Shown here piece by piece: positions 7,945 to 53,370 of a stretch of 64,000 nucleotides of DNA; the first letter of the stretch is position 1, and each line of letters starts with the position of its first letter. Source of the DNA: Parafilimonas terrae. Its GTDB lineage: Bacteria > Bacteroidota > Bacteroidia > Chitinophagales > Chitinophagaceae. The stretch covers positions 310,001 to 374,000 of the forward strand of contig NZ_FOXQ01000002.1 of NCBI RefSeq assembly GCF_900115755.1, given 5' to 3'. The position numbers and the translations under genes were made by a program. A model generated the notes under the pieces. That model made no database searches and was not told where the DNA came from. It saw nothing but the letters and a program-made list of their open reading frames with translations.

Positions 7945-8031
7945 TTCTGCAATTCAAAATTTTTACAGCAGCATTAAACATTACAATAAATCAGGTGTTT
8001 GTTCGGTTATTATTTTTCGTAGATGGCTGCC

Positions 8032-8379: not shown

Positions 8380-8381
8380 GT

Positions 8382-8771: not shown

Positions 8772-8775
8772 AGAG

Positions 8776-9066: not shown

Positions 9067-9120
9067 TTTATCAATTAAAATTTACTATACATACTACAGT
9101 TAAATAATCTAATAAACTAA

Positions 9121-10257: not shown

Positions 10258-10326
10258 TCTTCAATTTAAGCGTGAGTAATATTGTTGAATTTATGCAGCA
10301 GGAGATGTTCAAATTTATACCATGCT

Positions 10327-13045: not shown

Positions 13046-13083
13046 TGATTTTAATCATCAGTAACCGGTAACTGCATATTGAT

Positions 13084-14111: not shown

Positions 14112-14284
14112 CCGTATATTTTTTTATTCCTTTTTAGCCTGATGGAACGCCCTGAGATACATAATTCCTGCATGATTAAAATTTTATATGGGCGTTTCAT
14201 TGAGCTTTAGGTTTTATTAAAACTTACAGGCGGCGTTTTAAACCATTTCATTGCTCCACATGCATCAGCTTTTAGTTTAAAAAG

Positions 14285-14339
14285 AAGGGTGAGAATTATG
14301 ATGAAAATTGTGCGGCTGAAACACAACATTCTCACCCTT
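14285..14339 (-). terminator. Terminator-like hairpin after nosZ
   Basis: Perfect 12-bp arms AAGGGTGAGAAT / ATTCTCACCCTT enclose a 31-nt loop. Read on the minus strand the second arm is followed by CTTTTTAAAC, a short T tract. It starts 7 bp past the nosZ stop, so it may end the cytochrome c-nosZ transcript or stabilise its 3' end and limit read-through into the nosL-nosY genes. Confidence 0.6.
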
Positions 14340-14345
14340 GCAATA

Positions 14346-16346
14346 TTATTTACTGATAGTAGTTGTGTCTTTACCACCCGGAGCTTTATCGCCTGTGCCA
14401 AATGCCAGGGGCACTTTGCTTCCTTTGGGTGAGATGCGTATATAGCCGGACATTTCCTGGTGCAGGGCGCTGCAGAAATCAGTGCAATAGAAAGGATATA
14501 TTCCAACTTTTTCCGGCACCCATTTAAGCGTGCGTGTTTCACCCGGCATTATCAGCAACTCCGCTGTACTGGCAGCTTTAATGGCAAAGCCATGCGGTAT
14601 ATCCCAATCCTGCTCCTGGTTAGTAACATGAAAATAAACTTCATCGCCCACCTGCACGCCTTCAATATTATCCGGTGCAAGGTGAGAACGTATTGCCGTC
14701 ATATAAACATGAACCTTATTGCCTTCACGCACCACTTTGGCATTGGGCTCGCCCTTGGCGGCATAAGTGTTTTCATTTTGCATGATATCATAAAACTTCT
14801 TGCTCTTATCTTTTATGAGGCTGGCTTCAATAGCCTGTGCATAGTGCGGCTCGCCGATGGTTGGAAAATCGAGTATCAGCTGCATCTTATCGCCTGATAT
14901 ATCATATAACTGTGCACTCTGCGCAAGTTCCGGGCCTGTGGGCAGGTAACGGTCTTTGGTGATCTTGTTATAAGCAATAACATATTTTGCATTTGGCTTT
15001 TTGGTATCGCCGCCCGGAATGCTTAAGTGGCCGATGGAATAATAAGTGGGCGCACGGTCAAGCACTTTCAGGTCTTTAATATTCCATTTCACAATTTCAG
15101 ATGAAATAAAGAATGACGTATAAGCGTTGCCTTTGCCATCAAACTCTGTATGTAATGGGCCAAGGCCTGGTTTCTGCACTTCGCCATATAAAACATCTTC
15201 ATATTTTAATACAGGGATGTTTTCGTAAGTACCATCAAATTTTTTGTTGTTGATGGCATTCATCATTTTACTGAAACTCAATACAGGTATTAATGCCGCA
15301 AGCTTGCCTGAACCAACAATATATTCTCCTGTGGGGTCAACATCGCAGCCATGCGGAGACTTAGGGCAAGGCATCATATAAGCTATGCCCGGCAATGCCA
15401 TTGCATCTAAAACAGTAACTTCTGTTTCTATGGTTGAAGTGGCCGTTTGTGTTTTTTCATCATACACATTATGTGCATATTTCACCTGTTGCTTCACACC
15501 CTTGCCCTGTTGCAGGTATTCTTCTGCTTTCTTCCAGTTAATAGCCATGATAAAGTCTTTATCACGCTGTGATGCGTTTACTTCCAGCAATGTATGCGCC
15601 TGTTCTGTATTGTAGCAGGAGAAGAAGAACCATCCATGTGACGGGCCTTTACCGGCATGGCTCAGGTCGAGGTTAATGCCTGGTATTTTTAACTGGAAGG
15701 CAATCTTCATGTTGCCGGAATTTTTGTCAACGCTTACAAAGCTTATCGTACCAAGGAAATTCTTTTTATAAGAATCGATTGGCACGTCACCATCTGCATT
15801 ATCGGGCGGTACGCTGAAGCGGGTGCCTGCAACAATATATTCTGTATTTTCTGTGGCGAAAGGAGAGGAGTGGTTACCTGCACTGTTAGGCAGCTCCAGT
15901 ATTTCAGCCGTGTTATAAGTGCTTAAATCAATACGTGCAATACGGGGTGTGTTATTACCGTTGCCAAACACCCAGCGCCCATCAATTTCGCCGTTTGTTT
16001 GTGAAGCTTCTATATGATGCAGATCATCCCACGGAATGAAACCGTGTGAAGTGTTGAGCATGGGTTTTGATTCTTCACTGTAACCATAACCGGCCTGCGG
16101 GTCAACAGAGAACACGGGTATTACGCGAAGCAATCTTCCCGAAGGTAATCCATACACGCTCATTTGCCCGCTGAAACCGCCGGAAACAAAATCGTAAAAT
16201 TCATCGTACTTGCCGGGTGGCACATACGTTTTTTGCGCAGCATCAGCGCTTACCGCATTGGCAGTATTTTTTGGTTTGCATGAGTAAGCACATAGCATTA
16301 GTGCTGCCGCCAGTGCAAGTGCTGCCGGCACATTTGATAGTTTCAT
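14346..16346 (-). CDS. nosZ: Nitrous-oxide reductase NosZ, clade II (Sec-type) form
   Basis: 666 aa. Reduces N2O to N2 in the periplasm. The N-terminus is a Sec/lipoprotein-type signal (cysteine at residue 23, AYSCKP) with no twin-arginine motif, which is the hallmark of clade II (atypical) NosZ. CuZ-region histidines are seen in DDLHHIEASQTNGEIDGRWV (His110/111), SHAGKGPSHGWFFFS and KSPHGCDVDPTGEYIV. The C-terminal cupredoxin domain carries the CuA site CTDFCSALHQEM with Cys621, Cys625, His629 and Met632. It starts 21 bp after a cytochrome c lipoprotein gene, its likely co-transcribed electron donor. There is no nosR, as usual for clade II. An FNR-like box lies upstream of the pair. Confidence 0.97.
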   Translation of the reverse strand: MKLSNVPAALALAAALMLCAYSCKPKNTANAVSADAAQKTYVPPGKYDEFYDFVSGGFSGQMSVYGLPSGRLLRVIPVFSVDPQAGYGYSEESKPMLNTSHGFIPWDDLHHIEASQTNGEIDGRWVFGNGNNTPRIARIDLSTYNTAEILELPNSAGNHSSPFATENTEYIVAGTRFSVPPDNADGDVPIDSYKKNFLGTISFVSVDKNSGNMKIAFQLKIPGINLDLSHAGKGPSHGWFFFSCYNTEQAHTLLEVNASQRDKDFIMAINWKKAEEYLQQGKGVKQQVKYAHNVYDEKTQTATSTIETEVTVLDAMALPGIAYMMPCPKSPHGCDVDPTGEYIVGSGKLAALIPVLSFSKMMNAINNKKFDGTYENIPVLKYEDVLYGEVQKPGLGPLHTEFDGKGNAYTSFFISSEIVKWNIKDLKVLDRAPTYYSIGHLSIPGGDTKKPNAKYVIAYNKITKDRYLPTGPELAQSAQLYDISGDKMQLILDFPTIGEPHYAQAIEASLIKDKSKKFYDIMQNENTYAAKGEPNAKVVREGNKVHVYMTAIRSHLAPDNIEGVQVGDEVYFHVTNQEQDWDIPHGFAIKAASTAELLIMPGETRTLKWVPEKVGIYPFYCTDFCSALHQEMSGYIRISPKGSKVPLAFGTGDKAPGGKDTTTISK

Positions 16347-16367
16347 ATATCAGGTTGTTTTTATTTT

Positions 16368-16847
16368 TTATTTAGCGCCATCATTTTTACGCATGAATTC
16401 GAGGATGTGGCGTGCATCATCATCTGTAAGATTTTGGTTAGGCATTCTTACGAGGCATATTTCGAGCTGTGATTGTAATGCGGGGTCTTTATCAATCATG
16501 GCATCAGGATTAGTAATAAAATTCATGATCCATGCAGGCTGATGCCTTTCGGTAACACCGGCCCAGCCCGGCCCAACTAATTTTTCATCGGTAAGCTTGT
16601 GACAGGCAGAACATTTTACATCGAATATTTTTTTACCTGCATCTGCCATTGTTGCATCCAGCGGGCCAACCTCAACATTTGAGAATTTTCCTTCACCGCG
16701 GTGTGGATCATAGTCTGCTAAAGATTTGGTACCTGCATTCTGATCAGTACTGTTACTATCAGCATTGCTATTGTCATTGTTGCCGGCACCGCCTGAGCAG
16801 GCGTACAACAAGGCAGAGATAATTGTAATTGCAAGCATTTTCTTCAT
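16368..16847 (-). CDS. Cytochrome c lipoprotein, probable electron donor to NosZ
   Basis: 159 aa from the ATG at 16847; a longer in-frame start would put about 42 residues ahead of a clear lipoprotein signal (SALLYACSGG). A single haem c site CSACH lies near residue 80, and an axial Met is likely in VRMPNQNL. A low-complexity Asn/Asp/Ser-rich linker (about residues 20-40) follows the lipid anchor. It is immediately upstream of nosZ and shares its promoter, consistent with the small cytochromes (nosC type) of clade II clusters. The FNR-like palindrome is 57 bp upstream of the start. Confidence 0.9.
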   Translation of the reverse strand: MKKMLAITIISALLYACSGGAGNNDNSNADSNSTDQNAGTKSLADYDPHRGEGKFSNVEVGPLDATMADAGKKIFDVKCSACHKLTDEKLVGPGWAGVTERHQPAWIMNFITNPDAMIDKDPALQSQLEICLVRMPNQNLTDDDARHILEFMRKNDGAK

Positions 16848-16875
16848 AGTTGTGTCTGTTTGTTTTAATAATATG

Positions 16876-16884
16876 CAAAGTTTA
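16876..16884 (-). promoter_or_regulatory. Putative -7 element of cytochrome c-nosZ promoter
   Basis: On the minus strand this reads TAAACTTTG, close to the Bacteroidetes TAnnTTTG box but with one extra spacer base. It places transcription start near 16869, about 43 bp from the centre of the FNR-like palindrome, as in class II activation. Confidence 0.4.
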
Positions 16885-16903
16885 AAATCCAAGGGGCTTT
16901 TAG

Positions 16904-16921
16904 TTATGACTGAAATCATAA
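16904..16921. promoter_or_regulatory. FNR/DNR-like box between crp/fnr gene and cytochrome c-nosZ
   Basis: TTATGA-N6-TCATAA is an inverted repeat with perfect 6-bp arms. Its core TGAC-N4-ATCA is one base away from the FNR core TGAT-N4-ATCA. It lies between two divergent units and is the probable site through which the adjacent Crp/Fnr protein activates nosZ and perhaps controls itself. Confidence 0.6.
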
Positions 16922-16972
16922 AAACAATAAGTAATGGCATGATTAATGTCAACTTTTTATAATCCGATTGCA

Positions 16973-16980
16973 TAAATTTG
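16973..16980 (+). promoter_or_regulatory. Putative -7 element of crp/fnr gene
   Basis: TAAATTTG matches the Bacteroidetes TAnnTTTG -7 consensus and sits 21 bp before the ATG at 17002. The matching -33 TTTG is not clear. Confidence 0.45.
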
Positions 16981-17001
16981 GAATACTGAAAGCCACACTC
17001 A

Positions 17002-17595
17002 ATGATACAGGAAGATATTTTGCTTACTTATGGGGCAACATTTAGAAAATATACGAAAGATCAATGTATTTTTTTTGAAGGCGATGAGCCCCTGTTTTTT
17101 TTCCAGATCTCAAAGGGGTCTGTGCGTATGGTAAATATTTTCAGGGATGGGAAAGAATTCATACAAGGTTTATTTAATGAAGGACAAAGCTTTGGCGAGC
17201 CCTCTTTATTAATAAACTCCTGTTATCCTGCTACTGCTATTGCCAATGAGGATACCGTTATAATAAAAATGACAAAAGAAAATTTTTTGTACCTGCTGCG
17301 CAATAACGATGAGATATTATATGATTTTGCAACAATGCTGGGTGCAATGCTCTATATGAAAACTGCTATGACAAAAGAAATTGCCAGGGAAAGGCCGCAT
17401 CATCGCATAGCTACTTTATTGCACATGCTTAAAAAACAAAGCGGCTGCCCTAAAGAAAAAACATTTAAGATTGAATTATCGCGCCAGCGTATTGCGGATA
17501 TGCTTGGCTTGCGCGTGGAAACCGTTATACGCAACATGAAGAGGCTGGAAGAAGATGGGTTTATTGCTATCAAAAAAGGAAAAGCATATATATGA
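17002..17595 (+). CDS. Crp/Fnr-family regulator, probable denitrification regulator (DNR/NnrR-like)
   Basis: 197 aa. The N-terminal beta-roll sensor covers about residues 15-125 (CIFFEGDEPLFFFQISKGSVRM; GQSFGEPSLLINSCYPATA). A long dimer helix and then the winged helix SRQRIADMLGLRVETVIRNMKRLEEDGFI follow. It lacks the N-terminal cysteine cluster of FNR, so it probably does not carry a 4Fe-4S centre; NO-responsive DNR/NnrR proteins likewise lack it. It is divergent from cytochrome c-nosZ with a shared FNR-like palindrome, and a second such site overlaps its own stop codon ahead of the next gene. Regulation of nos and the downstream gene is inferred from that arrangement. Confidence 0.85.
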   Translation: MIQEDILLTYGATFRKYTKDQCIFFEGDEPLFFFQISKGSVRMVNIFRDGKEFIQGLFNEGQSFGEPSLLINSCYPATAIANEDTVIIKMTKENFLYLLRNNDEILYDFATMLGAMLYMKTAMTKEIARERPHHRIATLLHMLKKQSGCPKEKTFKIELSRQRIADMLGLRVETVIRNMKRLEEDGFIAIKKGKAYI

Positions 17596-17606
17596 TTAAG
17601 ATCATA
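17591..17606 (+). promoter_or_regulatory. FNR/DNR-like box upstream of the 17641 gene
   Basis: TATGA-N6-TCATA with the exact core TGAT-N4-ATCA. It overlaps the stop codon of the regulator gene. Its centre is about 42 bp before the ATG of the next gene, where transcription probably starts a few bases after CTTTGCC (17631). Confidence 0.6.
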
Positions 17607-17640
17607 AAAATGCTATACAGTTGTTTTTTTCTTTGCCGCA

Positions 17641-18873
17641 ATGACTATAAGCTTATATAAATGGCTGCGCATTGCAGTTTTTAACCTGTTGCTTGTGGCT
17701 TTTCTTGGCCTTGTTATGCGGTATAAAATTGCTTTTAGCCTGCCCTTTATTACTCAAAAATATTTTCTAAATGCGCATTCGCATTTTGCATTTGCAGGCT
17801 GGATTACGCAGGCCCTTATGACTTTTATTGCATTTTATATTGCAAAGAACAAGGCATCTTTTTCACTTAAAAAATATAACCGTTTATTGTTTGCTAATTT
17901 GATAACGGCTTATGGCATGCTGTTTTGCTTTCCGTTTGAAGGCTACGGATTGATGTCGATTATTTTTTCAACGTTGTCAATTTTTGTATCGTATGCATTT
18001 GCTATTGTGGTATGGCGCGATTTAAACAGGATTAATAAAAAAACTGTTACCCATGCGTGGATAAAGGCCGCTTTAATCTGGAGTGCGCTATCATCAATCG
18101 GCCCTTATACGTTAGCCTATATGATGGCAACAGGGCACATTTATCAAAATATATACCTGGCATCAATTTATTTCTACCTGCATTTTCAATATAACGGTTG
18201 GTTCTTTTTTACGTGTATGGGCTTATTCATGAATAAGCTGCCGGAATTGCTGTTCTCTGTCAAGCTGAAGAAAAATATTTTTTATGCATTTGCGTTTGCC
18301 TGCCTGCCAGCTTACTTTCTGTCTGCATTATGGCTTCCTATTCCAACATGGATTTATATTATTGTTGTAGCAGCTGCTTTTGTGCAGGTTATTGCATGGG
18401 GTGCATTATCTGTAAAGCTTGTTTCAAACCGCATTGCCATTTTTTCACAACAGCATAAGCCTGTTACATGGCTTTTTGTTTTGCCGGGAATAGCGCTAAG
18501 CATAAAACTATTGCTGCAGTTAGGTTCTACCATTCCTGCATTAAGCACGTGGGCTTTTGGTTTCAGGCCCATTGTAATTGGCTACCTGCACCTTGTGTTC
18601 CTTGGCATATTCAGCATATTTATCCTGGCATATAATTTATACAATGGGTATTTTGAATATAACAACCGGTTTGCACGGGGCGCATGGATTTTTATAGCGG
18701 GCATTATTTTAAATGAGGCGCTGCTGATGCTGCAGGGGCTTGATGCCATTACTTATACAGGTGTTCCGTATATAAACGAACTGCTGCTCGGTGCTGCAAT
18801 TGTGATGTTTGTTGGCATACTTATTTTGAATATGGCAACTGTTTCCAGTAAGCAAAACAAGGGCAACATTTAA
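17641..18873 (+). CDS. Polytopic membrane protein resembling haem-copper oxidase/NnrS subunits
   Basis: 410 aa with 11-12 predicted membrane helices and no soluble domain. Histidines sit in helix contexts like those of haem-copper oxidases or NnrS: NAHSHFAFAGW (His46, His48), YLHFQYNGWFFF (His181) and GYLHLVFLG (His317). I cannot place it in a named enzyme family, and the full CuB/haem ligand set of an oxidase is not obvious. The HxHxxxAGW motif is shared with the NnrS-like protein at 38100. It directly follows the Crp/Fnr gene and has its own FNR-like box, so it is probably expressed during denitrification. It could be an accessory protein for NO handling, a haem/copper membrane protein, or a divergent reductase subunit. 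Confidence 0.65.
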   Translation: MTISLYKWLRIAVFNLLLVAFLGLVMRYKIAFSLPFITQKYFLNAHSHFAFAGWITQALMTFIAFYIAKNKASFSLKKYNRLLFANLITAYGMLFCFPFEGYGLMSIIFSTLSIFVSYAFAIVVWRDLNRINKKTVTHAWIKAALIWSALSSIGPYTLAYMMATGHIYQNIYLASIYFYLHFQYNGWFFFTCMGLFMNKLPELLFSVKLKKNIFYAFAFACLPAYFLSALWLPIPTWIYIIVVAAAFVQVIAWGALSVKLVSNRIAIFSQQHKPVTWLFVLPGIALSIKLLLQLGSTIPALSTWAFGFRPIVIGYLHLVFLGIFSIFILAYNLYNGYFEYNNRFARGAWIFIAGIILNEALLMLQGLDAITYTGVPYINELLLGAAIVMFVGILILNMATVSSKQNKGNI

Positions 18874-36072: not shown

Positions 36073-36110
36073 AATCTGCCCGAAGCTATAAGTTTAGCTT
36101 CGGGCAGATT
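36073..36110 (+). terminator. Strong terminator hairpin after M20 dipeptidase
   Basis: A 16-bp perfect stem from 36073-36088 and 36095-36110 around the loop TAAGTT; the core is CTGCCCGAAGCTA pairing with TAGCTTCGGGCAG. Followed by TTCGTTTG, a short T-rich stretch. Confidence 0.85.
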
Positions 36111-36203: not shown

Positions 36204-36243
36204 CTAAAAAAATAAAAGACAAATTTGTCTTTTATTTTTTTAG
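36204..36243. promoter_or_regulatory. Perfect 40-bp palindrome, candidate Rrf2/NsrR operator
   Basis: Two exact 20-bp arms with no spacer; the left arm is CTAAAAAAATAAAAGACAAA and the right arm is its reverse complement. It contains the motif AATAAAAGA-N8-TCTTTTATT, also found upstream of the Rrf2 gene at 39826. Its TTTG (36224-36227) is the -33 element for the -7 box TACTTTTG at 36248, so a bound repressor would block the promoter. AAGACAAATTTGTCTT resembles the shape of NsrR operators. A terminator role is unlikely because it is 100 bp past the previous terminator. Confidence 0.7.
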
Positions 36244-36255
36244 CATGTACTTTTG
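36224..36255 (+). promoter_or_regulatory. Promoter of the DUF2249/hemerythrin operon
   Basis: TTTG (36224-36227), a 20-bp gap, then TACTTTTG (36248-36255) fits TTTG / TAnnTTTG. The -33 lies exactly at the centre of the 40-bp palindrome. Start codon 37 bp downstream. Confidence 0.65.
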
Positions 36256-36292
36256 CGTTGTTATTAAACCACACAATTAAAAATTAAACATT

Positions 36293-37198
36293 ATGGTAAC
36301 GGCAGAAATTTTAGATGTTACCCGGATAGAACCAAAACTTAAACATCCAACTATTTTTAAGCATTTTGATGAGCTGGAGGCCGGTGAAAGTTTTATTATT
36401 GATAATGATCATGATCCAAAACCATTGTATTATCAGCTCCTGGGTGAACGCGGTAATATATTTAAGTGGGAATACCTTCAGCAGGGGCCCTTGCGCTGGC
36501 AGGTTAAAATTGCCAAAAACAAAAATGAAGAGCAGGAAAATGCTGTGTCGGTTTCTGAAAAAGACCTGCGCAAGGCTACCGTATTTAAAGCAAAAGGGAT
36601 TGATTATAGCTGCAATACCGGTAAAGCATCTGAAAAAATATCAGAAGGGGAGAAGAAGCATATTGCTTTGCCCGGCATTGATAAACTGCAACTGAATTTT
36701 CTCTCAGATTATATCACTAACACGTATCATGCTTATATAAAAAGCAATGCAGAGGTTATAACAGGATTAGCAGAAAAAGTTGCTGAACGGCATGGCAGCC
36801 AGTACCCGCAACTAAACCGTCTTGCACAATCCATACCTTATTTTTTTAAGAGCCTTCAGGTGCATATTGATAAAGAAGACAATGCTGTTTTGCCGGCTAT
36901 CAAACAAATTGCATCAGCAGAAAACAGCAGTGTTGAAGATGAAATAACTGATTTGGATATTGTTAAACAATCACTGCTGTTATTGCAGAAGGAGCATGTG
37001 ATTATTACAGAAGACCTTGAGTATTTCCGCAGGCTAACTAATAATTACACGCTGCCTGATGGCGCCTGCAATTCATTTACTTATTTCTATCAAAAGCTGG
37101 AAGAATTGCATAGCACACTCGTGCATTGTATGCATGTGGAAGAAGATATGCTTTTTCCAAAAGTATCTGCGCTTGAAGCGGAAGCAGCAGAGGTTTAG
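36293..37198 (+). CDS. DUF2249-hemerythrin fusion protein (RIC-like)
   Basis: 301 aa. Residues of about 5-80 are a DUF2249 domain (ILDVTRIEPKLKHPTIFKHF; LEAGESFIIDNDHDPKPLYYQLLG). Residues of about 140-295 are a hemerythrin-type four-helix bundle of the RIC/ScdA kind: NFLSDYITNTYHAYIK, VAERHGSQYPQ, VHIDKEDNAVLPAI, LLQKEHVIITEDLEYFR and VHCMHVEEDMLFPKV supply the His and Glu for a di-iron site. RIC proteins repair iron-sulfur proteins damaged by NO or peroxide. It is the first gene of a four-gene operon behind the 40-bp palindrome. The DUF2249 part may bind a small ligand or partner; its role is unknown. Confidence 0.85.
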   Translation: MVTAEILDVTRIEPKLKHPTIFKHFDELEAGESFIIDNDHDPKPLYYQLLGERGNIFKWEYLQQGPLRWQVKIAKNKNEEQENAVSVSEKDLRKATVFKAKGIDYSCNTGKASEKISEGEKKHIALPGIDKLQLNFLSDYITNTYHAYIKSNAEVITGLAEKVAERHGSQYPQLNRLAQSIPYFFKSLQVHIDKEDNAVLPAIKQIASAENSSVEDEITDLDIVKQSLLLLQKEHVIITEDLEYFRRLTNNYTLPDGACNSFTYFYQKLEELHSTLVHCMHVEEDMLFPKVSALEAEAAEV

Positions 37199-37228
37199 TT
37201 GTGCACATTGCAATAAAATTATATCGCC

Positions 37229-38080
37229 ATGGAAAAAATGATTATCAATGATCATACAAAAATATCGGAACTGATAGCCCTTAATAAGGCGGCCATTGAT
37301 GCTATTGCAGCAGTTGCAAAACCGTTGCGCCGTTTAAAAAATCCTGTGCTGAGGAAGGTGATGGCTTCAAGGGTAAACATATCAGAGGCGGCAAAAATGG
37401 CTGATTGTAATGTAAAAGATATTGTGGCAGCATTAATACCACTGGGTTTCAGTTATGAAATAACTTCTTCAGTTAAAGAAGCAGCTATTCAACCTAAGCC
37501 CATTTGGCTGCGCAATACAAAAGAAAGCGATATTATATGGTATGATGTGCGTCCCATAATCGAGTCGGGCACAGACCCGCTGAGAAATATAATGGGAAAG
37601 TTTAAAGAAGTGGCGCCTGGCAAAGTATTATGCATCATCAACAGTTTTATTCCAACGCCATTAATTCATTTGCTGAAACAGGAAAAGGCAGAAGACAGTT
37701 ATGTGGAAGCAAAAAGCAACACTGAATTTTATACTTATTTCCTGAAAAAGCAAAGAGACGATGTTGTAAATAAAGCTGCAGCTAATACAGGTGAGAAAGT
37801 GATTATGGATGATGCTGATTCTTTTCAATCGGTACATAATGCTTTTTCAAAAGAAAAGATTAAAGAAATAGATGTGCGCCACCTGGAGATGCCATTGCCA
37901 ATGCAAACTATTTTAAAAGCATTAGAAGAATTGCCAAAAGGCAATATGTTATTTGTTCATCACAAAAGAGTGCCTGTATATCTTCTTGAAGATCTTGCAA
38001 ATAAAAATTATGAAGTGCATATTCACACGATTGATGAAAAGAATGTGAAGATGATCTTATTTGAAACTTCATCAGTATAA
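37229..38080 (+). CDS. DUF1858 plus two DUF2249-like domains
   Basis: 283 aa, cytosolic. The N-terminal 70 residues match DUF1858/ScdA-N-type helical domains (NDHTKISELIALNKAAIDAI ... CNVKDIVAALIPLGF). Two DUF2249-like modules follow: IIWYDVRPIIESGTDPLRNI ... VLCIINSFIPTPLIHLL and IKEIDVRHLEMPLPMQTIL ... MLFVHHKRVPVYLLEDLANK. DUF2249 proteins are common beside NO and nitrite reduction genes, but the function is unproved. It lies 30 bp after the DUF2249-hemerythrin gene and 19 bp before the NnrS-like gene. Confidence 0.82.
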   Translation: MEKMIINDHTKISELIALNKAAIDAIAAVAKPLRRLKNPVLRKVMASRVNISEAAKMADCNVKDIVAALIPLGFSYEITSSVKEAAIQPKPIWLRNTKESDIIWYDVRPIIESGTDPLRNIMGKFKEVAPGKVLCIINSFIPTPLIHLLKQEKAEDSYVEAKSNTEFYTYFLKKQRDDVVNKAAANTGEKVIMDDADSFQSVHNAFSKEKIKEIDVRHLEMPLPMQTILKALEELPKGNMLFVHHKRVPVYLLEDLANKNYEVHIHTIDEKNVKMILFETSSV

Positions 38081-38099
38081 CATTAAATAATCCTGCTCA

Positions 38100-39368
38100 A
38101 TGGCAGATATTAATATAGGCAAAGCACCACCCAACAATGCAGTTCTTCCTTTTTATGCAACGGCCACCATCGCATTTTGGGCACTTTGCCTTTTATTGTT
38201 TTTTGATGCAGGTAATCTTACAAACCACTATTTCAATCCACACCTGCTGGCAATTGTACATACAGCAGCGCTGGGCTGGGGAACGATGGTCATCTTTGGC
38301 GCAGCACATCAACTGCTGCCTGTAATTTGTGAGCGTGATTTGTTCAGCCCAACAATTGCGGCTATATGCTGGTACACATTAACAGCAGGTGTCGCTTTAC
38401 TTATTGTTGCTTTCTATAACTTTTATACCGGATGGGTGATGATCAGTGGCGGCACGCTGATTGTGTTATCAGCATGTGCTTATTTTATCAATGTATTATT
38501 TACAAGCCACATTTGTATTCGTTATTCTGTAGTGAAATTATTTGTTGTTACTTCAGGTGCATGGTTATTGTTTACGGCTATAGCAGGATTACTGCTTGCA
38601 ATTAATTTACGATATCCTTTCTTCAGCAAAAGCCACCTTGAGATTTTAAAGTTGCACGCACATGCAGGGTTAGCTGGCTGGTTTCTTCAACTAATAACCG
38701 GTGTGAGCAGTAAACTTGTGCCTATGTTTTTGTTAGGCAAATCTGCAAGGCAAAAGCTGCTGCTATATGCTTGCTTGTTTCAAAATGCAGGGTTATTATT
38801 TTTTCTATTGGATGGTTATTTTTTTGGCATTACTGCAGCAAGGGTTATTATATATGTCATATTGGTTGCTGCCGGTATTGTATGCTGGCTAATGTATTTA
38901 TATGATGCATTTAGAAGCCGCGTTAGAAAAAATATAGACATTCAAATGAAACATACTTTTATTTCTTTCCTGTGCCTGGGCGCCGCTATATTATTGATAC
39001 CTGTAATTGTATATGCCGCAGGTTCCCGTTGGGCAATATTATACGGCGCCCTTTTATTTATGGGATGGATAACAGGTATTATACTTGGTAAAACATTTAA
39101 AACATTACCTTTTATAGTATGGAATGCGCATTACAAAACGCTTTCAGGAAAAGTAAAGGTTCCTTTACCTAAACAATTGTATAGTGAAGTTCTGGTTAAA
39201 TGGCAATTCAGGCTTTACATAGCTGCCGTTATATTGCTTTGCGCTGGCATCGTTATAAATGCGACTGTTATTATCCGTATCGCATCTGCAATATGGATAA
39301 TGGTGTCTTCGCTGTATGTGATAAATGTAATGAAGGTGCTGCTGCATAAAACAAAAATTGTATCATGA
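38100..39368 (+). CDS. NnrS-like/haem-copper-like polytopic membrane protein
   Basis: 422 aa with about 12 membrane helices. Histidine-bearing helices are HTAALGWGTMVIFGAAHQLLP (His54, His70), LKLHAHAGLAGWFLQL and FIVWNAHYKTLSG, like those of NnrS and cytochrome oxidase subunit I relatives that bind haem and copper. NnrS proteins protect against NO in other bacteria. It overlaps the following MIP18-like gene by 4 bp. Shares the HxHxxxAGW motif with the protein at 17641. Whether it binds haem is inferred. Confidence 0.78.
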   Translation: MADINIGKAPPNNAVLPFYATATIAFWALCLLLFFDAGNLTNHYFNPHLLAIVHTAALGWGTMVIFGAAHQLLPVICERDLFSPTIAAICWYTLTAGVALLIVAFYNFYTGWVMISGGTLIVLSACAYFINVLFTSHICIRYSVVKLFVVTSGAWLLFTAIAGLLLAINLRYPFFSKSHLEILKLHAHAGLAGWFLQLITGVSSKLVPMFLLGKSARQKLLLYACLFQNAGLLFFLLDGYFFGITAARVIIYVILVAAGIVCWLMYLYDAFRSRVRKNIDIQMKHTFISFLCLGAAILLIPVIVYAAGSRWAILYGALLFMGWITGIILGKTFKTLPFIVWNAHYKTLSGKVKVPLPKQLYSEVLVKWQFRLYIAAVILLCAGIVINATVIIRIASAIWIMVSSLYVINVMKVLLHKTKIVS

Positions 39369-39691
39369 CTATATCATTAAGCGATCCATTTTCTGAGGAA
39401 AAATTAAAAGCACAGGAAGCACTATATAGTGTGATAGACCCGGAGCTTTTTGTGAATGTGATAGACCTTGGGCTGATATATGATGTAGCGTTTGACGGGG
39501 ATAATATTGTTGTAACGATGACGCTCTCCACACCGCATTGCCCGATGGGCGAAGCCATTACCAACGGAGTGCAAAATGCATTGGAAAAAGTTTTTCCGGG
39601 TAAAGAAATAAGAATTGATCTGACATTTGATCCTCCCTGGGGGTTTGAAATGCTTACGCAGGAAGGCAGGATGCAATTGGGATTGAAATGA
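39365..39691 (+). CDS. MIP18/SufT-like metal-sulfur cluster assembly factor (DUF59)
   Basis: 108 aa. Matches the DUF59 family through ALYSVIDPELFVNVIDLGLIYD, VVTMTLSTPHCPMGEAI (with the conserved Cys) and IDLTFDPPWGFEMLT. Such proteins help insert or repair Fe-S clusters. The 4-bp overlap with the NnrS-like gene shows translational coupling. It fits a module that rebuilds Fe-S proteins damaged by NO. Confidence 0.92.
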   Translation: MTISLSDPFSEEKLKAQEALYSVIDPELFVNVIDLGLIYDVAFDGDNIVVTMTLSTPHCPMGEAITNGVQNALEKVFPGKEIRIDLTFDPPWGFEMLTQEGRMQLGLK

Positions 39692-39825
39692 GCCTGTAAG
39701 CACGGCCGGCCCGCGATAGCAGTCTGATCGAAAGGAGGAGTGTGAATATATTTTTGAAATGCTTCATCAGGCCGGCTTCACTGTGCCGATGTAAGATTCC
39801 CGCTGCCTGCAAAATTTATTTAGCA

Positions 39826-39851
39826 AATAAAAGAGTTTTTTATCTTTTATT
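39826..39851. promoter_or_regulatory. Candidate autoregulatory Rrf2 operator
   Basis: AATAAAAGA-N8-TCTTTTATT: perfect 9-bp arms and the same 8-bp spacing as the core of the 40-bp palindrome at 36204. It covers the -33 region of the Rrf2 promoter whose -7 box is at 39865. Confidence 0.65.
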
Positions 39852-39864
39852 ACAGATTGGGTTT

Positions 39865-39872
39865 TATCTTTG
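39865..39872 (+). promoter_or_regulatory. Putative -7 box of the Rrf2 gene
   Basis: TATCTTTG matches TAnnTTTG exactly and lies 14 bp after the inverted repeat and 17 bp before the ATG. Confidence 0.6.
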
Positions 39873-39889
39873 CACCATAAAAACAAAGA

Positions 39890-40321
39890 ATGTTTTCAAA
39901 AACCTGCGAGTATGCTATAAGGGCTATGATATTTATTGCACAAAAAACAAAACAGGATAGCAGGGTTGGTATAAAAGATATAGCCAAAGGCATTAATTCA
40001 CCCGAACATTTTATTGCAAAAATTTTGCAGGATTTAACCCGCAAAGGCTTGCTGCAATCTGCAAAAGGCCCTTCCGGCGGGTTTTATCTTGATAAGACAT
40101 CTATGAAACAATCGCTGGCAGACGTTGTGAAGGCAGTGGATGGCGATAAGATTTTTTATGGCTGCGGCCTCGGTTTAAAGCAATGCTCGGAAATAAAACC
40201 ATGCCCCATTCATTTTCAATTCAAGAAGGTGCGACAGGAGTTATCAAATATGCTGCAAAACGCAAGAATAGATGCTTTTACAGAAGCGCTTGAAAATAAT
40301 ACGGCTTTTTTAAGAAGATAA
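39890..40321 (+). CDS. Rrf2-family regulator (NsrR/IscR-like)
   Basis: 143 aa. The winged helix at the N-terminus (MFSKTCEYAIRAMIFIAQKT; SPEHFIAKILQDLTRKGLLQSAKGPSGGFYL) is followed by three cysteines in YGCGLGLKQCSEIKPCPIH, the expected Fe-S cluster ligands of NsrR/IscR. It probably senses NO or Fe-S status and represses both its own gene and the 36293 operon through the shared palindrome. It stands at the head of the cbb3-like oxidase cluster, 46 bp before the CcoN-like gene. Confidence 0.92.
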   Translation: MFSKTCEYAIRAMIFIAQKTKQDSRVGIKDIAKGINSPEHFIAKILQDLTRKGLLQSAKGPSGGFYLDKTSMKQSLADVVKAVDGDKIFYGCGLGLKQCSEIKPCPIHFQFKKVRQELSNMLQNARIDAFTEALENNTAFLRR

Positions 40322-40334
40322 ATTTTTTTGAAAT

Positions 40335-40360
40335 AATAAAAGACAAAAAGGTATTAATAT
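40335..40360. promoter_or_regulatory. Half-site of the Rrf2 motif upstream of CcoN-like gene
   Basis: AATAAAAGACAAA is identical over 13 bp to the left part of the 36204 palindrome. The right arm is degenerate (TATTAATAT, 4 of 9 matching TCTTTTATT). It lies in the 46-bp gap between Rrf2 and the oxidase gene. Confidence 0.45.
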
Positions 40361-40367
40361 CTTAAAT

Positions 40368-42533
40368 ATGAAATGCAGGAATAAATTATTGATGAAATGC
40401 CTGGTTATTATCCCATTGCTGTTTACCGCTTTTCCATTGTGGGCGCAGGGCATGAAACCATCGGCTTTTTCGTTTGAATCAAAAGAAGCATGGCTGTGGC
40501 TTATGCTAATCATTGCGCTTATGCTGCTCATAGCTGCCGTTATGCTTAAGGAAAAGGTTTCAGCATTAACGAGCAATTATAAAAAGCACAAAACAGAAGC
40601 ATATAAAGAGAAGCTAAAGGAATATACACAGCAGCTCAACAGCAAACAGATTGAACAATTATTGCAGCACCGTAATAAAAAATCTTTCCGCAATGCAGGC
40701 AATATTCTCTTAATCTTTTTTGCATCATTATTTATTTTTTTACCAGGCAGCCTTATAGCTCAAACACCCGAAAAGCCCGATGCATCTTCATTGCTGGGCG
40801 AAGGCGGCATTATTATTACCATCATACTAATTCTAATTCCTATACTGGCCGGCCTTATTCTTCTTACCATTAAAATAAGCAATGCCATAAACCGGCAGCG
40901 GAATAAGATGCGGCTTGAAGAAGCCGCAAAGCTGGCCGAATACCTTGAAACATTGCCGGATGAAGAAATAAATGATGTGTTGAAGAAGAGAAAAGAAGCG
41001 CTCGATTATTCGCTTACGCATAATGAATTGTCAGGAAGCGAACCCGCAGAAGATTCAAGAGGTTTGCTGAACATTAGCCAGGAGCCGGGCATGCCGATAG
41101 TTGCCATTAAAAAGAAAGCCTTGCCGCGGCCTAATATTGATCCTGCTTTATCCCGGCTGGTACTTTGGTATTTAGGTTGCGCTGCATTTTGGTTGCTGTT
41201 TGGAACCACTATCGGCGAATACCTCGGTATTAAATTCGTGGCGCCCGATGCTGACCATGTGAGCTGGCTTAGCTTTGGCCGTTTACGTCCTGTGCATACT
41301 AATTCTGTATTCTGGGGCTGGGCTTCACTGGGCATGCTTGGGCTGGGTAACTATATAGTGCCGAGGGTAAGCAATGTAAAAATGTATAGCATAAAACTTG
41401 GCTGGTATGCGCTGTTCTTTATTAATGCGGCGGTTATTATTGGTTCTGTTTGTTTAATGGCAGGCATTAATAACGGCGGCGGCGAATACCGCGAATATAT
41501 ATGGCCTGTAATGCTGCTATTCGGTATTGGCCTTGCACTCAGCCTCATCAATTATATTAAAACCATTGCCGTCCGAACCACAAAAGAAATTTATATCTCT
41601 AACTGGTATATGGTATCGGCTATTATTTTCACTATCGTAATCTCACTAACTGCTTATATTCCTTCCTGGCAAAATGGTTTGGGAGAAACCATCGTTCAGG
41701 GTTATTACATGCACCAGGGTGTAGGAATGTGGTTTATGTTGTTTACACTTGGCATTGTGTATTATTTCCTGCCGCAGCAACTTAATAAACCTATTTATTC
41801 CTACAGCCTTGGTATTCTTGCTTTCTGGACACAAATATTATTTTACACGCTTATCGGCACACACCATTTTGTATTCAGCGCTATACCCTGGTGGCTGCAA
41901 ACCGTAGCTATAGTTGGCAGCGGGGGCATGGCTATTCCGGTAATTGCAGGCACCACTAATTTCCTGATGACTTTTAAAGGCGCCTGGTATAAAATAAAAG
42001 ACAGCTATACGCTTCCTTTCTTTTTGGTAGGTATCATCTTTTACTTCACAGGTTCCATGCAGGGTACGGCAGAAGCATTCCGTTCTACCAATCTTATCTG
42101 GCATTTTACTGATTTTACCGTAGCGCATTCCCATCTAACCATGTACGGTATTATATCTTTCTTTTTATGGGCCTGCATATATGCTGTGGTGCCAAGGCTT
42201 ACCGGCAAAGAAGCACCGCAAATAACAGTGGGCGCTCATTTCTGGATGGCCCTGATAGGATTACTTTTTTACACTGTGCCGCTTATGTATGGCAGCACAT
42301 TAAAAGGTTTATTGTGGCTGAATGGCAAGCCTTTTATGGATGGTGTAAAGCTAATGGAACCTTACTGGTTATGGCGGGCAATTGGCGGCACCCTTATGTG
42401 GCTTTCTCATGTATTCTTTGCTTATAATATGTATAAGATGATAAAACGCACTAACGAAGTAGATGTAAAATCATCTGCTATTCAGCAACTCGAAAAAGAC
42501 AGTTCATTCATTTCACCTGCCAAATCATATTAA
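40368..42533 (+). CDS. cbb3-type oxidase catalytic subunit (CcoN-like) with long N-terminal extension
   Basis: 721 aa. Residues of about 258-690 are a CcoN-type haem-copper core with 12 helices: low-spin haem ligand His310 (SFGRLRPVHTNSV), CuB ligands His449 (YMHQGVG) and His499/His500 (IGTHHFVF), Tyr493 at the position of the cross-linked tyrosine, and His587/His589 (TVAHSHLTMYG). The NorB signature glutamate four residues after the first CuB histidine is absent. Unusually, about 255 residues precede the core: a signal-like segment (10-26), helices near 43-60, 110-131 and 147-169, and charged coiled-coil stretches. Canonical cbb3 enzymes reduce O2, and some also reduce NO. The Rrf2 and RIC neighbours suggest NO-linked expression. 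Confidence 0.87.
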   Translation: MKCRNKLLMKCLVIIPLLFTAFPLWAQGMKPSAFSFESKEAWLWLMLIIALMLLIAAVMLKEKVSALTSNYKKHKTEAYKEKLKEYTQQLNSKQIEQLLQHRNKKSFRNAGNILLIFFASLFIFLPGSLIAQTPEKPDASSLLGEGGIIITIILILIPILAGLILLTIKISNAINRQRNKMRLEEAAKLAEYLETLPDEEINDVLKKRKEALDYSLTHNELSGSEPAEDSRGLLNISQEPGMPIVAIKKKALPRPNIDPALSRLVLWYLGCAAFWLLFGTTIGEYLGIKFVAPDADHVSWLSFGRLRPVHTNSVFWGWASLGMLGLGNYIVPRVSNVKMYSIKLGWYALFFINAAVIIGSVCLMAGINNGGGEYREYIWPVMLLFGIGLALSLINYIKTIAVRTTKEIYISNWYMVSAIIFTIVISLTAYIPSWQNGLGETIVQGYYMHQGVGMWFMLFTLGIVYYFLPQQLNKPIYSYSLGILAFWTQILFYTLIGTHHFVFSAIPWWLQTVAIVGSGGMAIPVIAGTTNFLMTFKGAWYKIKDSYTLPFFLVGIIFYFTGSMQGTAEAFRSTNLIWHFTDFTVAHSHLTMYGIISFFLWACIYAVVPRLTGKEAPQITVGAHFWMALIGLLFYTVPLMYGSTLKGLLWLNGKPFMDGVKLMEPYWLWRAIGGTLMWLSHVFFAYNMYKMIKRTNEVDVKSSAIQQLEKDSSFISPAKSY

Positions 42534-42538
42534 TCATA

Positions 42539-43552
42539 ATGGAATTCTTTAATAATCATAAAAAGCTTTTTGGTACTGCCACGTTAATGTTTGTTGGTTT
42601 AACGTTGATGGTGGCAATTCTGCCGGCTATCCATAACCAGGAAAATAACCAGCAATTGCCCGGAGCAGAAAAATTGAGTGCTGACGCTGTGAAGGGCAAA
42701 GCATTGTTTGTAGCGAATGGATGTGTTGCCTGCCATACGCAACAGGTACGCAATGTGGATATGGATAAAAGCTGGGGCAGCCGCCCCAGCCTTGCGGCAG
42801 ATTATGCTGGTATAAAACGCACCGATTTCTGGCGTAACACTGCCACATTAATGGGAACAGAACGTACAGGCCCGGACCTTACTGATGTGGGTAACCGCCA
42901 GCCATCAAAGGACTGGAACCTTGTGCATCTTTTTAACCCGCGCATTGTGGTGAAGGAATCTGTGATGCCTGCTTATTCCTGGTTGTTCACCATAAAAAAA
43001 GAACCTTCAAAAAATGATGTGGTGGTAAACGTTCCTGCGGAATATTTAAAAGGGAAGGAAGGCAAAGTGGTGGCAACAAAAGATGCCCTGTATTTGATTG
43101 CTTATCTCCAGTCGCGCAAGCAAACCAAGTTGCCAGACGGAACTGCTCAACCAGAATTCTTATATAAAAGAGAAGTAAAAAAAGAAGCTGCGGGCGGCGC
43201 TGCTGCTGAAGATGCAGGTGCAAACGGACAAGCATTATTTGTTGCCAACTGCCAGTCATGCCACCAGGAAAATGGGGAAGGCCTGCCAGGTGCATTTCCG
43301 CCGTTAAAAGGAAGCCCTGTGGTATTGGGCGATGACCTTGAGTTATATGTGAATATTATAATGAATGGTTATGATGCAAGGCAGGAATACGGTGTAATGC
43401 CGGCAGTAGGAACCAATATGAGTTTCAGTGAAAACGAAGTGTCTGCTATCATCAATTATGAACGCAGCAGTTGGGGTAATAACGGCAAACACGTGACGCC
43501 TGAAGAAGTGAAGAAGATCATGGATTTTGTAAAATTAAACGCCCCCAAATAA
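42539..43552 (+). CDS. CcoO-like cytochrome c fused to a second cytochrome c domain
   Basis: 337 aa. One N-terminal membrane anchor (about 11-30) is followed by a CcoO-type domain: haem site CVACH (Cys62, Cys65, His66), QQVRNVD, TERTGPDLTDVGNRQ, HLFNPRIVVKESVMPAYSWLF with axial Met143. A linker rich in Ala/Glu (about 211-229) leads to a second cytochrome c with CQSCH (Cys238, Cys241, His242) resembling a CcoP module. So subunits II and part of III seem merged. It begins 5 bp after the CcoN-like gene. It would carry electrons from soluble donors to the haem-copper centre. Confidence 0.9.
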   Translation: MEFFNNHKKLFGTATLMFVGLTLMVAILPAIHNQENNQQLPGAEKLSADAVKGKALFVANGCVACHTQQVRNVDMDKSWGSRPSLAADYAGIKRTDFWRNTATLMGTERTGPDLTDVGNRQPSKDWNLVHLFNPRIVVKESVMPAYSWLFTIKKEPSKNDVVVNVPAEYLKGKEGKVVATKDALYLIAYLQSRKQTKLPDGTAQPEFLYKREVKKEAAGGAAAEDAGANGQALFVANCQSCHQENGEGLPGAFPPLKGSPVVLGDDLELYVNIIMNGYDARQEYGVMPAVGTNMSFSENEVSAIINYERSSWGNNGKHVTPEEVKKIMDFVKLNAPK

Positions 43553-43818
43553 TGAAGAAATTAATAAACAGTATCCTTATTTTTTTTGTCGCATCAGTGG
43601 GCACTGTTGCGGCATGCCCTGCCTGTGAACAGAGCCAGCCTAAAATTTTAAGAGGCATTACACATGGTGCGGGCCCGGACAGCCGCTGGGATTATCTTAT
43701 CGTATATATAGCTGTCATAATTGTGTTAGCAACGCTTTTCTTTTCAGTGAAATGGCTTGTAAAGCCAGGTGAAAAATCGAAAGAACACATTAAGCGAATG
43801 ATTTTAAACAACCAATAA
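43552..43818 (+). CDS. Small membrane protein with CPAC motif
   Basis: 88 aa. A signal-like N-terminus runs to about residue 20, then CPACEQSQPKILRG with a CxxC pair on the periplasmic side, a membrane helix (about 47-67) and a basic tail. The start overlaps the stop of the cytochrome gene (TAATG), so it is translationally coupled to it. No domain recognised. The CxxC could bind copper or a haem-maturation intermediate; CcoQ/CcoH-like assembly roles are possible but unproved. Confidence 0.75.
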   Translation: MKKLINSILIFFVASVGTVAACPACEQSQPKILRGITHGAGPDSRWDYLIVYIAVIIVLATLFFSVKWLVKPGEKSKEHIKRMILNNQ

Positions 43819-43819: not shown

Positions 43820-44224
43820 ATGCGTGATAAAAGTACCATATTCATTTTTATTGATGAGGATACCAAGCCTGTGGCAGAAGTGCTTTCACCGGTGAGTTTT
43901 GAATTAGATACCCGCAAGCTTACGGATGGAGAACATATATTGAAGATTGTGAGTAAAGATCCTGCGGGCAAAGAAGGCATCCGTAAAATTCCGTTCGTTG
44001 TGCGCAATGGCCCTGCCATAGCGGTTGAAGGGATTAAAGAAAATGCGGTAGTAGATGGCGTGCTGCCCTTGATGATTAATGCTTATGGCAAAGGCGATCA
44101 GAAATCTTTTCTTATTGAAGGAAGTGAAACGCCGCAAAGCATTCCTGCCTGGGTTTGGATACTTATCATTGGCTTTACAGGATGGGCGCTGTTTTACCTG
44201 GTGAGATATTTTGCTGCATCATAA
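43820..44224 (+). CDS. Single-pass membrane protein with beta-rich soluble domain
   Basis: 134 aa. Residues 1-105 form an extracytoplasmic-type beta domain (TIFIFIDEDTKPVAEVLSP; DGEHILKIVSKDPAGKEG) resembling bacterial Ig-like or cupredoxin-shaped modules. A C-terminal helix (IPAWVWILIIGFTGWALFYL) anchors it. No signal peptide is seen, so its orientation is uncertain. It begins 1 bp after the previous gene in the oxidase operon. No metal-ligand set is evident. Confidence 0.7.
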   Translation: MRDKSTIFIFIDEDTKPVAEVLSPVSFELDTRKLTDGEHILKIVSKDPAGKEGIRKIPFVVRNGPAIAVEGIKENAVVDGVLPLMINAYGKGDQKSFLIEGSETPQSIPAWVWILIIGFTGWALFYLVRYFAAS

Positions 44225-44319: not shown

Positions 44320-44751
44320 ATGGCAACAGTAAAATTACCCGTAGCAATTGTTATCACTTTTGTGTGGATTGGCTTTGTTTGCGCTATCAGCTTTATGGAA
44401 TCATGGATTAAATTCCGGGCGCCTAACGTTACACTTTCTGTGGGGCTCGGCATAGGCCGAATTGTTTTTAAAGCGCTCAATCGTGTGGAAATTTTATTAT
44501 CGGTTATCATATTTATTAACCTGCTGCTTTCAGGAAACCAACTGTTAACACTCCGTAATCTTACTTTTTTTATTCCATTATTAGTCGTTCTTATGCAGGC
44601 TTTCTGGCTTTTGCCGGCGCTCGATGCACGTGCTGAGCTACGCATGCAGAATGCAGTGCTGCCGCCATCCAACCTGCATTTTTATTATATAGGAACAGAA
44701 GTGCTTAAAGTGGCATGCCTGTTCATATTTGGCACTTCTCTTTTCAAATAA
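44320..44751 (+). CDS. Four-helix membrane protein of the oxidase cluster
   Basis: 143 aa, almost all membrane: helices near 6-25, 55-75, 82-100 and 122-140. Contains SFMESWIKFRAP and FWLLPALDARAELRM in loops. No domain is assigned with confidence. It is 95 bp after the preceding gene and 13 bp before the RIC gene, and so is probably co-expressed with them. Confidence 0.7.
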   Translation: MATVKLPVAIVITFVWIGFVCAISFMESWIKFRAPNVTLSVGLGIGRIVFKALNRVEILLSVIIFINLLLSGNQLLTLRNLTFFIPLLVVLMQAFWLLPALDARAELRMQNAVLPPSNLHFYYIGTEVLKVACLFIFGTSLFK

Positions 44752-44764
44752 AAAATATTTAATC

Positions 44765-45493
44765 ATGAATAATATAACAGCGCATACCATCGTGGGCCAA
44801 CTGGTAGCCAGCGATTATAATACTGCATCCGTATTTCAATCTTATGGCATTGATTTTTGCTGCAAAGGCAATAAGACTATTGACGAAGCCTGTGCGAATC
44901 AAAAAATAGATGTAAATAATTTGTTGAATGCATTGCAACAGGCTACTGCGAAAAGTGATGAAAAGGCAATTGATTATAATTCCTGGCCATTGGACCTGCT
45001 TGCCGATTACATTGAAAAAAAACATCACCGTTATGTAGAAATGAAAACAGGAGAGATAAAACCTTTTCTCAACAAAGTAGTAAGCGTGCACGGTTCGCGG
45101 CATCCCGAGCTTGAAGAAGTGCAGCAATTATTTGATGAATCTGCAGGTGAATTAGCCATGCACATGAAAAAAGAAGAATTGATTTTATTTCCGTTTATAA
45201 GAAAAATGGTGGCTGCTGCAAACAGTGGCGACGATCTTACTGCGCCGCGTTTTGGAACAGTACAAAATCCTATTGCTGCAATGCTGCATGAACATAATGC
45301 GGAAGGTGATCGTTTTGGCAGGATAGCAGCGCTTACGCAAAACTATACGCCGCCTGCTGACGCCTGCAACACATACAGGGTTACTTTGGCTATGCTGAAA
45401 GCATTTGAAGAAGACCTGCATTTGCACATTCACCTGGAGAATAACATTCTTTTTCCAAAAGCTATTGCAATGGAAGAACAAATGCTGCATTAG
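44765..45493 (+). CDS. RIC/ScdA-type iron-sulfur cluster repair di-iron protein
   Basis: 242 aa from ATG 44765. The N-terminal ScdA_N (DUF542) domain carries YGIDFCCKGNKTIDEAC with the characteristic Cys-Cys. The hemerythrin bundle supplies KHHRYVEMK, VVSVHGSRHPELEEV, AMHMKKEELILFPFI, LHEHNAEGDRFG and LHLHIHLENNILFPKA, all His/Glu ligand positions of the di-iron site. Restores Fe-S clusters after NO or peroxide damage. It is the last gene of the cbb3-like cluster, matching the DUF2249-hemerythrin paralogue at 36293. Confidence 0.95.
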   Translation: MNNITAHTIVGQLVASDYNTASVFQSYGIDFCCKGNKTIDEACANQKIDVNNLLNALQQATAKSDEKAIDYNSWPLDLLADYIEKKHHRYVEMKTGEIKPFLNKVVSVHGSRHPELEEVQQLFDESAGELAMHMKKEELILFPFIRKMVAAANSGDDLTAPRFGTVQNPIAAMLHEHNAEGDRFGRIAALTQNYTPPADACNTYRVTLAMLKAFEEDLHLHIHLENNILFPKAIAMEEQMLH

Positions 45494-53342: not shown

Positions 53343-53370
53343 AAAGGCGTGCATTTAAATGCACGCCTTT
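53343..53370. terminator. Bidirectional palindromic terminator
   Basis: A perfect 28-bp palindrome whose arms are AAAGGCGTGCATTT and its complement, preceded by A residues and followed by ATTTTGTTT. It separates the converging saccharopine dehydrogenase and M1 peptidase genes. Confidence 0.85.

Follow-up and report, generated by a model that had tools for sequence, protein, structure and literature searches.

Three sites around an Rrf2 gene

The stretch of Parafilimonas terrae DNA analyzed here (the window; 64 kb of contig NZ_FOXQ01000002.1, positions 310,001 to 374,000) carries the gene of an Rrf2-family regulator (39890-40321; PF02082, 7e-26) and three related sites, each of which precedes an operon around it: one beginning with a DUF2249-hemerythrin gene (36293), the Rrf2 gene itself (39890), and a CcoN-like operon (40368) that ends in RIC. 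All genes of this locus lie on the forward strand. The first operon opens with a protein that combines DUF2249 and hemerythrin domains (36293-37198; PF10006, 3e-24; PF01814, 7e-8) and has a RIC-like C-terminal half, scoring 115 bits with TIGR03652, under the cut-off of 204.7. It is followed by a DUF1858 and DUF2249 protein (37229-38080; PF10006, two matched stretches), a membrane protein that weakly resembles heme-copper oxidase subunit I and has no Pfam family (38100-39368), and a MIP18/SufT-type iron-sulfur (Fe-S) assembly protein (39365-39691; PF01883). The CcoN-like operon encodes a cbb3-type subunit I homolog with an N-terminal extension of about 260 amino acids (40368-42533; PF00115, 1e-80; TIGR00780, 243.6 bits, under the cut-off of 583), a FixO/CcoO-like mono-heme subunit fused to a cytochrome c domain (42539-43552), three small genes (43552-43818, 43820-44224, and 44320-44751, the latter two without a match in the family scan) and, last, a RIC/ScdA iron-sulfur repair di-iron protein (44762-45493; TIGR03652, 244.5 bits, over the cut-off of 204.7).

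Operator 1 is a 40-bp perfect palindrome (36204-36243, assigned to neither strand), in which CTAAAAAAATAAAAGACAAA and TTTGTCTTTTATTTTTTTAG form exact 20-bp arms without a spacer. Its core, AATAAAAGA-N8-TCTTTTATT (36211-36236), covers the -33 TTTG (36224-36227) of the DUF2249-hemerythrin promoter, whose -7 box, TACTTTTG (36248-36255, forward strand), was read from the sequence; the two boxes are 20 nt apart and match the Bacteroidota -33/-7 promoter. No other gapless palindrome in the window is as long, the runner-up having arms of 14 bp, and none with an arm above 12 bp occurs in 1.07 Mb of related loci; with independent bases, a 20+20-bp palindrome is expected about 1e-5 times per 5 Mb.

Operator 2, AATAAAAGA-GTTTTTTA-TCTTTTATT (39826-39851, likewise unstranded), overlaps the Rrf2 promoter at its -33 region, and the -7 box of that promoter, TATCTTTG (39865-39872, forward strand), stands 13 nt past it. 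Exact AATAAAAGA-N8-TCTTTTATT occurs only at operators 1 and 2 in the whole 4.99-Mb genome; the two exact matches in the window compare with 0.26 expected at three or fewer mismatches, and nearly all of the next-best genomic look-alikes that we inspected (those with two mismatches, plus two with three) fall within coding sequence. An earlier reading of the window made without database searches (the sequence-only reading) had described both the palindrome, with its mismatch-free 20-bp arms and central -33 TTTG, and the perfect recurrence of the core over the Rrf2 promoter, and both descriptions hold. The position of operator 2 makes autoregulation of the Rrf2 gene probable.

Operator 3, AATAAAAGACAAAAAGGTATTAATATCTT (40335-40363, forward strand), precedes the CcoN-like gene, with a -33 TTTG just 5' of it (40327-40330) and a -7 'TA' (40352-40353) within its right arm. 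Here the sequence-only reading had seen a half-site: the 13-bp AATAAAAGACAAA at 40335-40347 is indeed identical to 36211-36223, but it is the left half of a longer element (40335-40363) that is conserved across loci, and we therefore rejected an isolated half-site in favor of a full, promoter-fused operator.

Conservation of the sites in related genomes

Eighty named and 30 further Rrf2-homolog loci were compared, and conservation was scored in 101 orthologous loci whose Rrf2 protein is at least 52% identical (75 distinct training sites; a few species are present twice). Within 150 bp upstream of Rrf2, 99 of these 101 loci have an operator that matches at 14 or more of the 18 arm positions, against 2.1% in a first-order Markov control, and 92 have one that matches at 15 or more, against 0.45%. 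The TAnnTTTG -7 box most often follows the site by 13 nt, as it does at operator 2, which indicates that the operator covers the -33 region. Loci of this kind span Chitinophagaceae, Sphingobacteriaceae and Chryseobacterium-type genera, and include Chitinophaga, Niabella, Niastella, Terrimonas, Segetibacter, Pedobacter, Parapedobacter, Chryseobacterium, and Epilithonimonas. Operators in the same position before DUF2249-hemerythrin genes were found at L035, L036, L042, L156, L159, L160, and L167. The outer 7 bp of the palindrome have a similar extension at a few other sites (L035/L156, L160, L075) and are not generally conserved; we therefore treat the 26-bp core as the functional unit.

A search that did not depend on Rrf2, for exact AATAAAAGAYN6RTCTTTTATT over 249 genomes of the family, returned 22 sites in 19 genomes and none for the reversed pattern. 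Seventeen of the 22 neighbor Rrf2 (8), DUF2249-hemerythrin (5), other hemerythrin or heme-copper-like (3) or CcoN-like (1) genes; three more lie by cytochrome c or CoxB-like genes, and two have no assigned target, one by a small cupin-like gene (L165) and one at a contig end (L168). All eight genomes with an exact site that were also screened for Rrf2 have it. Among the named loci, an operator precedes Rrf2 in 71/76 cases, CcoN-like genes in 22/34, RIC in 21/40, DUF2249-hemerythrin in 9/15, hemerythrin-PAS in 7/7, and truncated globin in 11/20, compared with 19/842 for other genes. Flavohemoglobin (L022), qNOR (L103) and, as a borderline case, NirK (L100) also stand behind operator sites, their identities having been checked with Pfam and NCBIfam. 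In genome G035 the CcoN-like and Rrf2 genes are located on separate contigs, and the CcoN-like gene nonetheless has a perfect operator. Over 121 genomes, Rrf2 co-occurs with NosZ (Fisher test, 1e-7), NO (nitric oxide) reductase (NOR; 0.006), and the CcoN-like gene (3e-4). By its conservation and placement, AATAAAAGA-N8-TCTTTTATT is a conserved putative operator. Absence of the motif near orthologous genes in relatives was one of the results that, by its own account, would have refuted the sequence-only reading; the motif is present there, both upstream of Rrf2 and before DUF2249-hemerythrin, RIC, CcoN-like, hemerythrin-PAS and globin genes, and the search made independently of Rrf2 yields mainly such neighbors. 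The self-contained circuit that it had described holds for this genome, but the regulon is wider in relatives.

The third site is a predicted full operator of a second type (class II, as distinct from the class I sites at operators 1 and 2), AATAAAAGA-y-AAAAAGG-TATTAATATCTT, fused to the CcoN-like promoter and conserved across genera. This element or a variant occurs shortly after the Rrf2 stop codon in 77 of 137 loci, mostly directly before the next gene, and its 17-mer AAAAAGGTATTAATATC is present as a single copy in each of 15 of the 249 genomes, in 13 of them before a CcoN-like gene (reversed pattern, none). In a logo of 69 class II sequences, 52 have TTT[G/A] at a constant distance of 4 nt upstream of the site, the left arm is intact, and the right arm keeps T18, T20, T21, and T26, while C19 is usually A, which gives the 'TA' of a -7 box spaced 21 nt downstream of the -33 box. 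The element abuts or nearly abuts the ATG of RIC in Chryseobacterium, of truncated globin in L059 and L078, and of qNOR in L103. We read it as an operator set between the -33 and -7 regions of a promoter whose transcript would have little or no leader. The alternative of a small RNA hairpin was set aside, since the left side of the element is nearly invariant and its right side varies without compensation.

Two genomes do not fit this description: G035 also has a class II element downstream of a class I promoter, and G005, whose closest Rrf2 protein is 45% identical, keeps the right part without the AATAAAAGA arm. These misfits suggest that the right part of the element may have a function of its own, for example in transcription or translation. 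At L199 (G005:C68:72900-73600), from the same genus, AACAGGTATTAATATCTT is kept before the CcoN-like ATG and AATAAAAGA is lost. Downstream of Rrf2, two Chitinophaga relatives (L110 7477 and L114 6823) have a tandem pair of class II-like elements, AATAAAAGACAAAAAGGTATTTTACT ... AATAAAGGACAAAAAGGTATTAATAT.

The regulator and the CcoN-like oxidase

The Rrf2 protein passes the superfamily cut-offs (PF02082, 91.3 bits against 30; TIGR00738, 91.4 against 73.3) and falls short of each equivalog family: RirA, its best-scoring named NCBIfam sub-family (NF008886, 61.6 against 193 bits), IscR (TIGR02010, 55.1 against 207.6), and NsrR (NF008240, 34.3 against 182). Residues E7, C92, C99, C105, and H108 are invariant in 96 orthologs, with the spacing C-x6-C-x5-C-P-x-H; E7 aligns with Asp8 of Escherichia coli NsrR, the acidic residue here being Glu, and H40 with the recognition-helix region of IscR. 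An AlphaFold model (pLDDT 86.8) has a winged helix and a long C-terminal dimerisation helix, and its top Foldseek matches are RsrR, NsrR (including the NsrR-operator complex 7b0c), CymR, and IscR. In a tree with E. coli NsrR and IscR, long branches dominate and the protein was not placed. A sister clade in which the recognition-helix H40 is replaced by A has the dyad TTTCGGA-N8-TCCGAAA upstream instead, at 10 loci (L033, L032, L124, L126, L132, L140, L034, L129, L123, L117). This covariation would fit an Rrf2 protein that reads its own upstream site, and a natural specificity switch; it is suggestive only, because the A40 group is one clade of single origin, with just one or two independent changes.

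The conservation and position of the sites, their association with NO and denitrification genes, the ligand candidates and the fold of the regulator were all computed here. Collectively, we give a probability of roughly 0.8 to the reading that the sites are operators of the neighboring Rrf2 protein, a probable Fe-S-cluster repressor that would regulate its own gene and control NO defence. Several observations weigh against it. The protein is 25% identical to E. coli NsrR and equally 25% to IscR, and RirA and IscR are its best-scoring named sub-families, so the signal could be iron or Fe-S status. Among the named loci the operator is rare before qNOR (1/31) and NirK (0/12), and many of the NO-gene homologs in the loci lack one of their own, many being internal to operons. 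The -7 region of class II lacks the TTTG of the usual TAnnTTTG, so we infer the class II promoter. Moreover, the conservation and association tests ignore shared ancestry, and their probabilities are nominal.

It is unlikely, in our view, that the Rrf2 protein is a regulator of iron or Fe-S status, like RirA or IscR, under which NO genes would be induced only through Fe-S damage or the need for repair. Such a role would agree with scores for RirA (61.6 bits) and IscR (55.1) above that for NsrR (34.3), with a regulon that includes MIP18/SufT-type and RIC repair proteins, and with a half-site layout like the ATAnnnGAC of IscR type-1 sites; yet every named sub-family is far under its cut-off, the targets in relatives are flavohemoglobin, truncated globins and qNOR rather than isc/suf or iron uptake genes, and Rrf2 co-occurs with NosZ and NOR. 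Binding of the palindrome by another regulator of the CRP/FNR type (for example the product of 7381-7944 or 17002-17595), with Rrf2 as a mere target, is very improbable. Genes of this type are present in the window, and HcpR, DNR, and NnrR control NO genes in other bacteria (PMC1274295), but the site accompanies the Rrf2 gene itself at 99 of 101 orthologs across genera, Rrf2 is found in 8 of 8 exact-site genomes screened for it, the H40-to-A clade has a correspondingly altered dyad, and the site lacks an FNR-type TTGAT-N4-ATCAA. A transcription terminator or a chance A/T-rich repeat has next to no probability and the terminator reading was rejected, since the palindrome, although A/T-rich and listed as terminator-like by a consensus scan, follows a gene already ended by its own GC-rich terminator (36073-36110), has a 26-bp core found again in unrelated loci, at promoters whose -7 boxes keep a constant distance from it, and would arise by chance about 1e-5 times per genome.

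While NirK and NosZ are encoded in this genome, a search of it for qNOR and cNOR returned neither, which makes the CcoN-like complex a candidate NO reductase. The genome has only three COX1-family proteins, and apart from the CcoN-like protein it has no obvious candidate of the COX1 type for NO reduction. The CcoN-like protein may act on NO as a reductase, or may be an NO-tolerant oxidase. Its family keeps the cbb3 His ligands and the cross-linkable Tyr (Y493), with Gln565 in place of the conserved cbb3 Glu. CcoN-like genes occur in 17 of 121 relatives; 14 of the 17 have NosZ (Fisher test, 2e-4), and 11 have it without a classical NOR. Of the 16 genomes with both a CcoN-like and an Rrf2 gene, 14 have the two on one contig with a gap below 600 bp. 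In G014 (L103) it is a qNOR gene that stands behind the class II element, exactly where the CcoN-like gene lies in other genomes. We tentatively raise the possibility that the CcoN-like/CcoO-cytochrome c complex is a cbb3-family respiratory NO reductase of Bacteroidota that have NirK and/or NosZ and lack qNOR and cNOR, with the class II operator as a distinct type of Rrf2 switch.

Elsewhere in the window lies a denitrification cluster, with genes for a truncated globin (8382-8771), NirK (9121-10257), nos accessory proteins (10327-13602), and a clade II NosZ (14346-16346), two CRP/FNR-like genes recognized by inspection of the letters alone (7381-7944 and 17002-17595), and a heme-copper-like membrane protein (17641-18873); no high-scoring Rrf2 operator was found across this cluster (7381-18873). 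The proteins of 38100-39368 and 17641-18873 are multi-spanning, resemble heme-copper subunit I and have no Pfam match, and genes for similar proteins come immediately after operators in L029 and L172; the proteins possibly form an uncharacterised NO-related membrane family. A 28-bp perfect palindrome, AAAGGCGTGCATTTAAATGCACGCCTTT, at 53343-53370 between convergent genes is probably a bidirectional terminator.

Proposed mechanism and known NO regulators

The mechanism that we infer involves direct binding and repression by the Rrf2 protein, an Fe-S cluster, and NO as the signal. Without NO, a cluster-loaded Rrf2 dimer would bind AATAAAAGA-N8-TCTTTTATT. At the class I sites (36211-36236 and 39826-39851) the -33 box would lie under the dimer and TAnnTTTG would follow about 13 nt further on. 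At the class II site (40335-40360) the dimer would occupy the stretch between the fixed -33 TTT[G/A] and the -7 region, with the change of C to A in the right arm letting the site itself provide the 'TA' of the -7 box. Damage by NO to the cluster, held by the three Cys and Glu7, would release the protein; in Streptomyces NsrR, Asp8 is a cluster ligand, analogous to the Glu7 proposed here. Once the repressor is released, expression of the DUF2249-hemerythrin operon, of rrf2 and of the CcoN-like/RIC operon would be induced.

Most likely, Rrf2 and its matching sites, kept together in many Bacteroidota, switch on genes of NO defence and denitrification, and the regulon possibly points to an unusual oxidase as the NO-removing enzyme. 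With the operator defined, the NO regulon can be compiled for Chitinophaga, Niabella, Chryseobacterium, Pedobacter, and their relatives; many of these bacteria have a clade II NosZ and thus consume nitrous oxide. The operator also offers a testable answer to how NO is dealt with in Bacteroidota that have NirK/NosZ but no classical NO reductase, as it marks the cbb3-like oxidase and the DUF2249-hemerythrin protein as induced genes. NO control in Bacteroidota beyond HcpR systems appears to be poorly described: full-text searches, in a body of literature without subscription papers or RegPrecise pages, yielded no account of this operator or of an Rrf2 NO regulon in Bacteroidota, in line with the earlier remark that the motif was not recognized as described.

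The CRP/FNR-type regulators HcpR, DNR, and NnrR likewise control NO and denitrification genes, and HcpR is also present in Bacteroides, where dnrN of Bacteroides fragilis is under its control (PMC1274295). They belong to an unrelated protein family and use FNR-type operators. RsrR, a redox-responsive Rrf2 protein of Streptomyces (6hsd/6y42), is the top structural and sequence match in the PDB, and an acidic residue near its N-terminus is a cluster ligand; it is 22-23% identical, has another Cys arrangement and is not known to have an NO regulon. RirA, the rhizobial iron regulator, is the best-scoring sub-family, but its 61.6 bits are far under the cut-off of 193, the targets here are not iron uptake genes, and its IRO box, TGA-N9-TCA, is unlike the present operator. 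IscR shares the fold and the winged-helix DNA-binding region, in which H40 aligns to its recognition helix, and its type-1 half-site layout, ATAnnnGAC, is similar to the operator here; it differs in sequence (25% identity; 55.1 against 207.6 bits) and in targets, which here are of the NO type, with no isc/suf operon at the locus and only a MIP18-type gene upstream.

The closest functional parallel is with NsrR, as the 'NsrR-like' label of the sequence-only reading had implied. Both have the Rrf2 fold, three conserved Cys with an acidic N-terminal residue, palindromic operators over promoters, and an NO detoxification regulon, the operators of relatives standing before RIC, DUF2249-hemerythrin, globins, flavohemoglobin, and qNOR; RIC, flavohemoglobin, NO reductase, and NirK are targets of the NsrR group as a whole (PMC1274295). 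The label is apt for function but not for family cut-off (34.3 against 182 bits), identity (25% to E. coli NsrR) or operator, since AATAAAAGA-N8-TCTTTTATT contrasts with the gATGyAT-N5-ATrCATc motif defined for NsrR in proteobacteria, Bacillus, and Streptomyces (Rodionov et al., 2005; PMC1274295). The protein differs further in having Glu7 for Asp8 and a C-x6-C-x5-C arrangement, and its regulon in the conserved CcoN-like and DUF2249-hemerythrin targets. Taken together, the best reading of these comparisons is that the Rrf2 regulator probably works like NsrR while standing outside the NsrR family as defined by profile cut-off, identity and operator.

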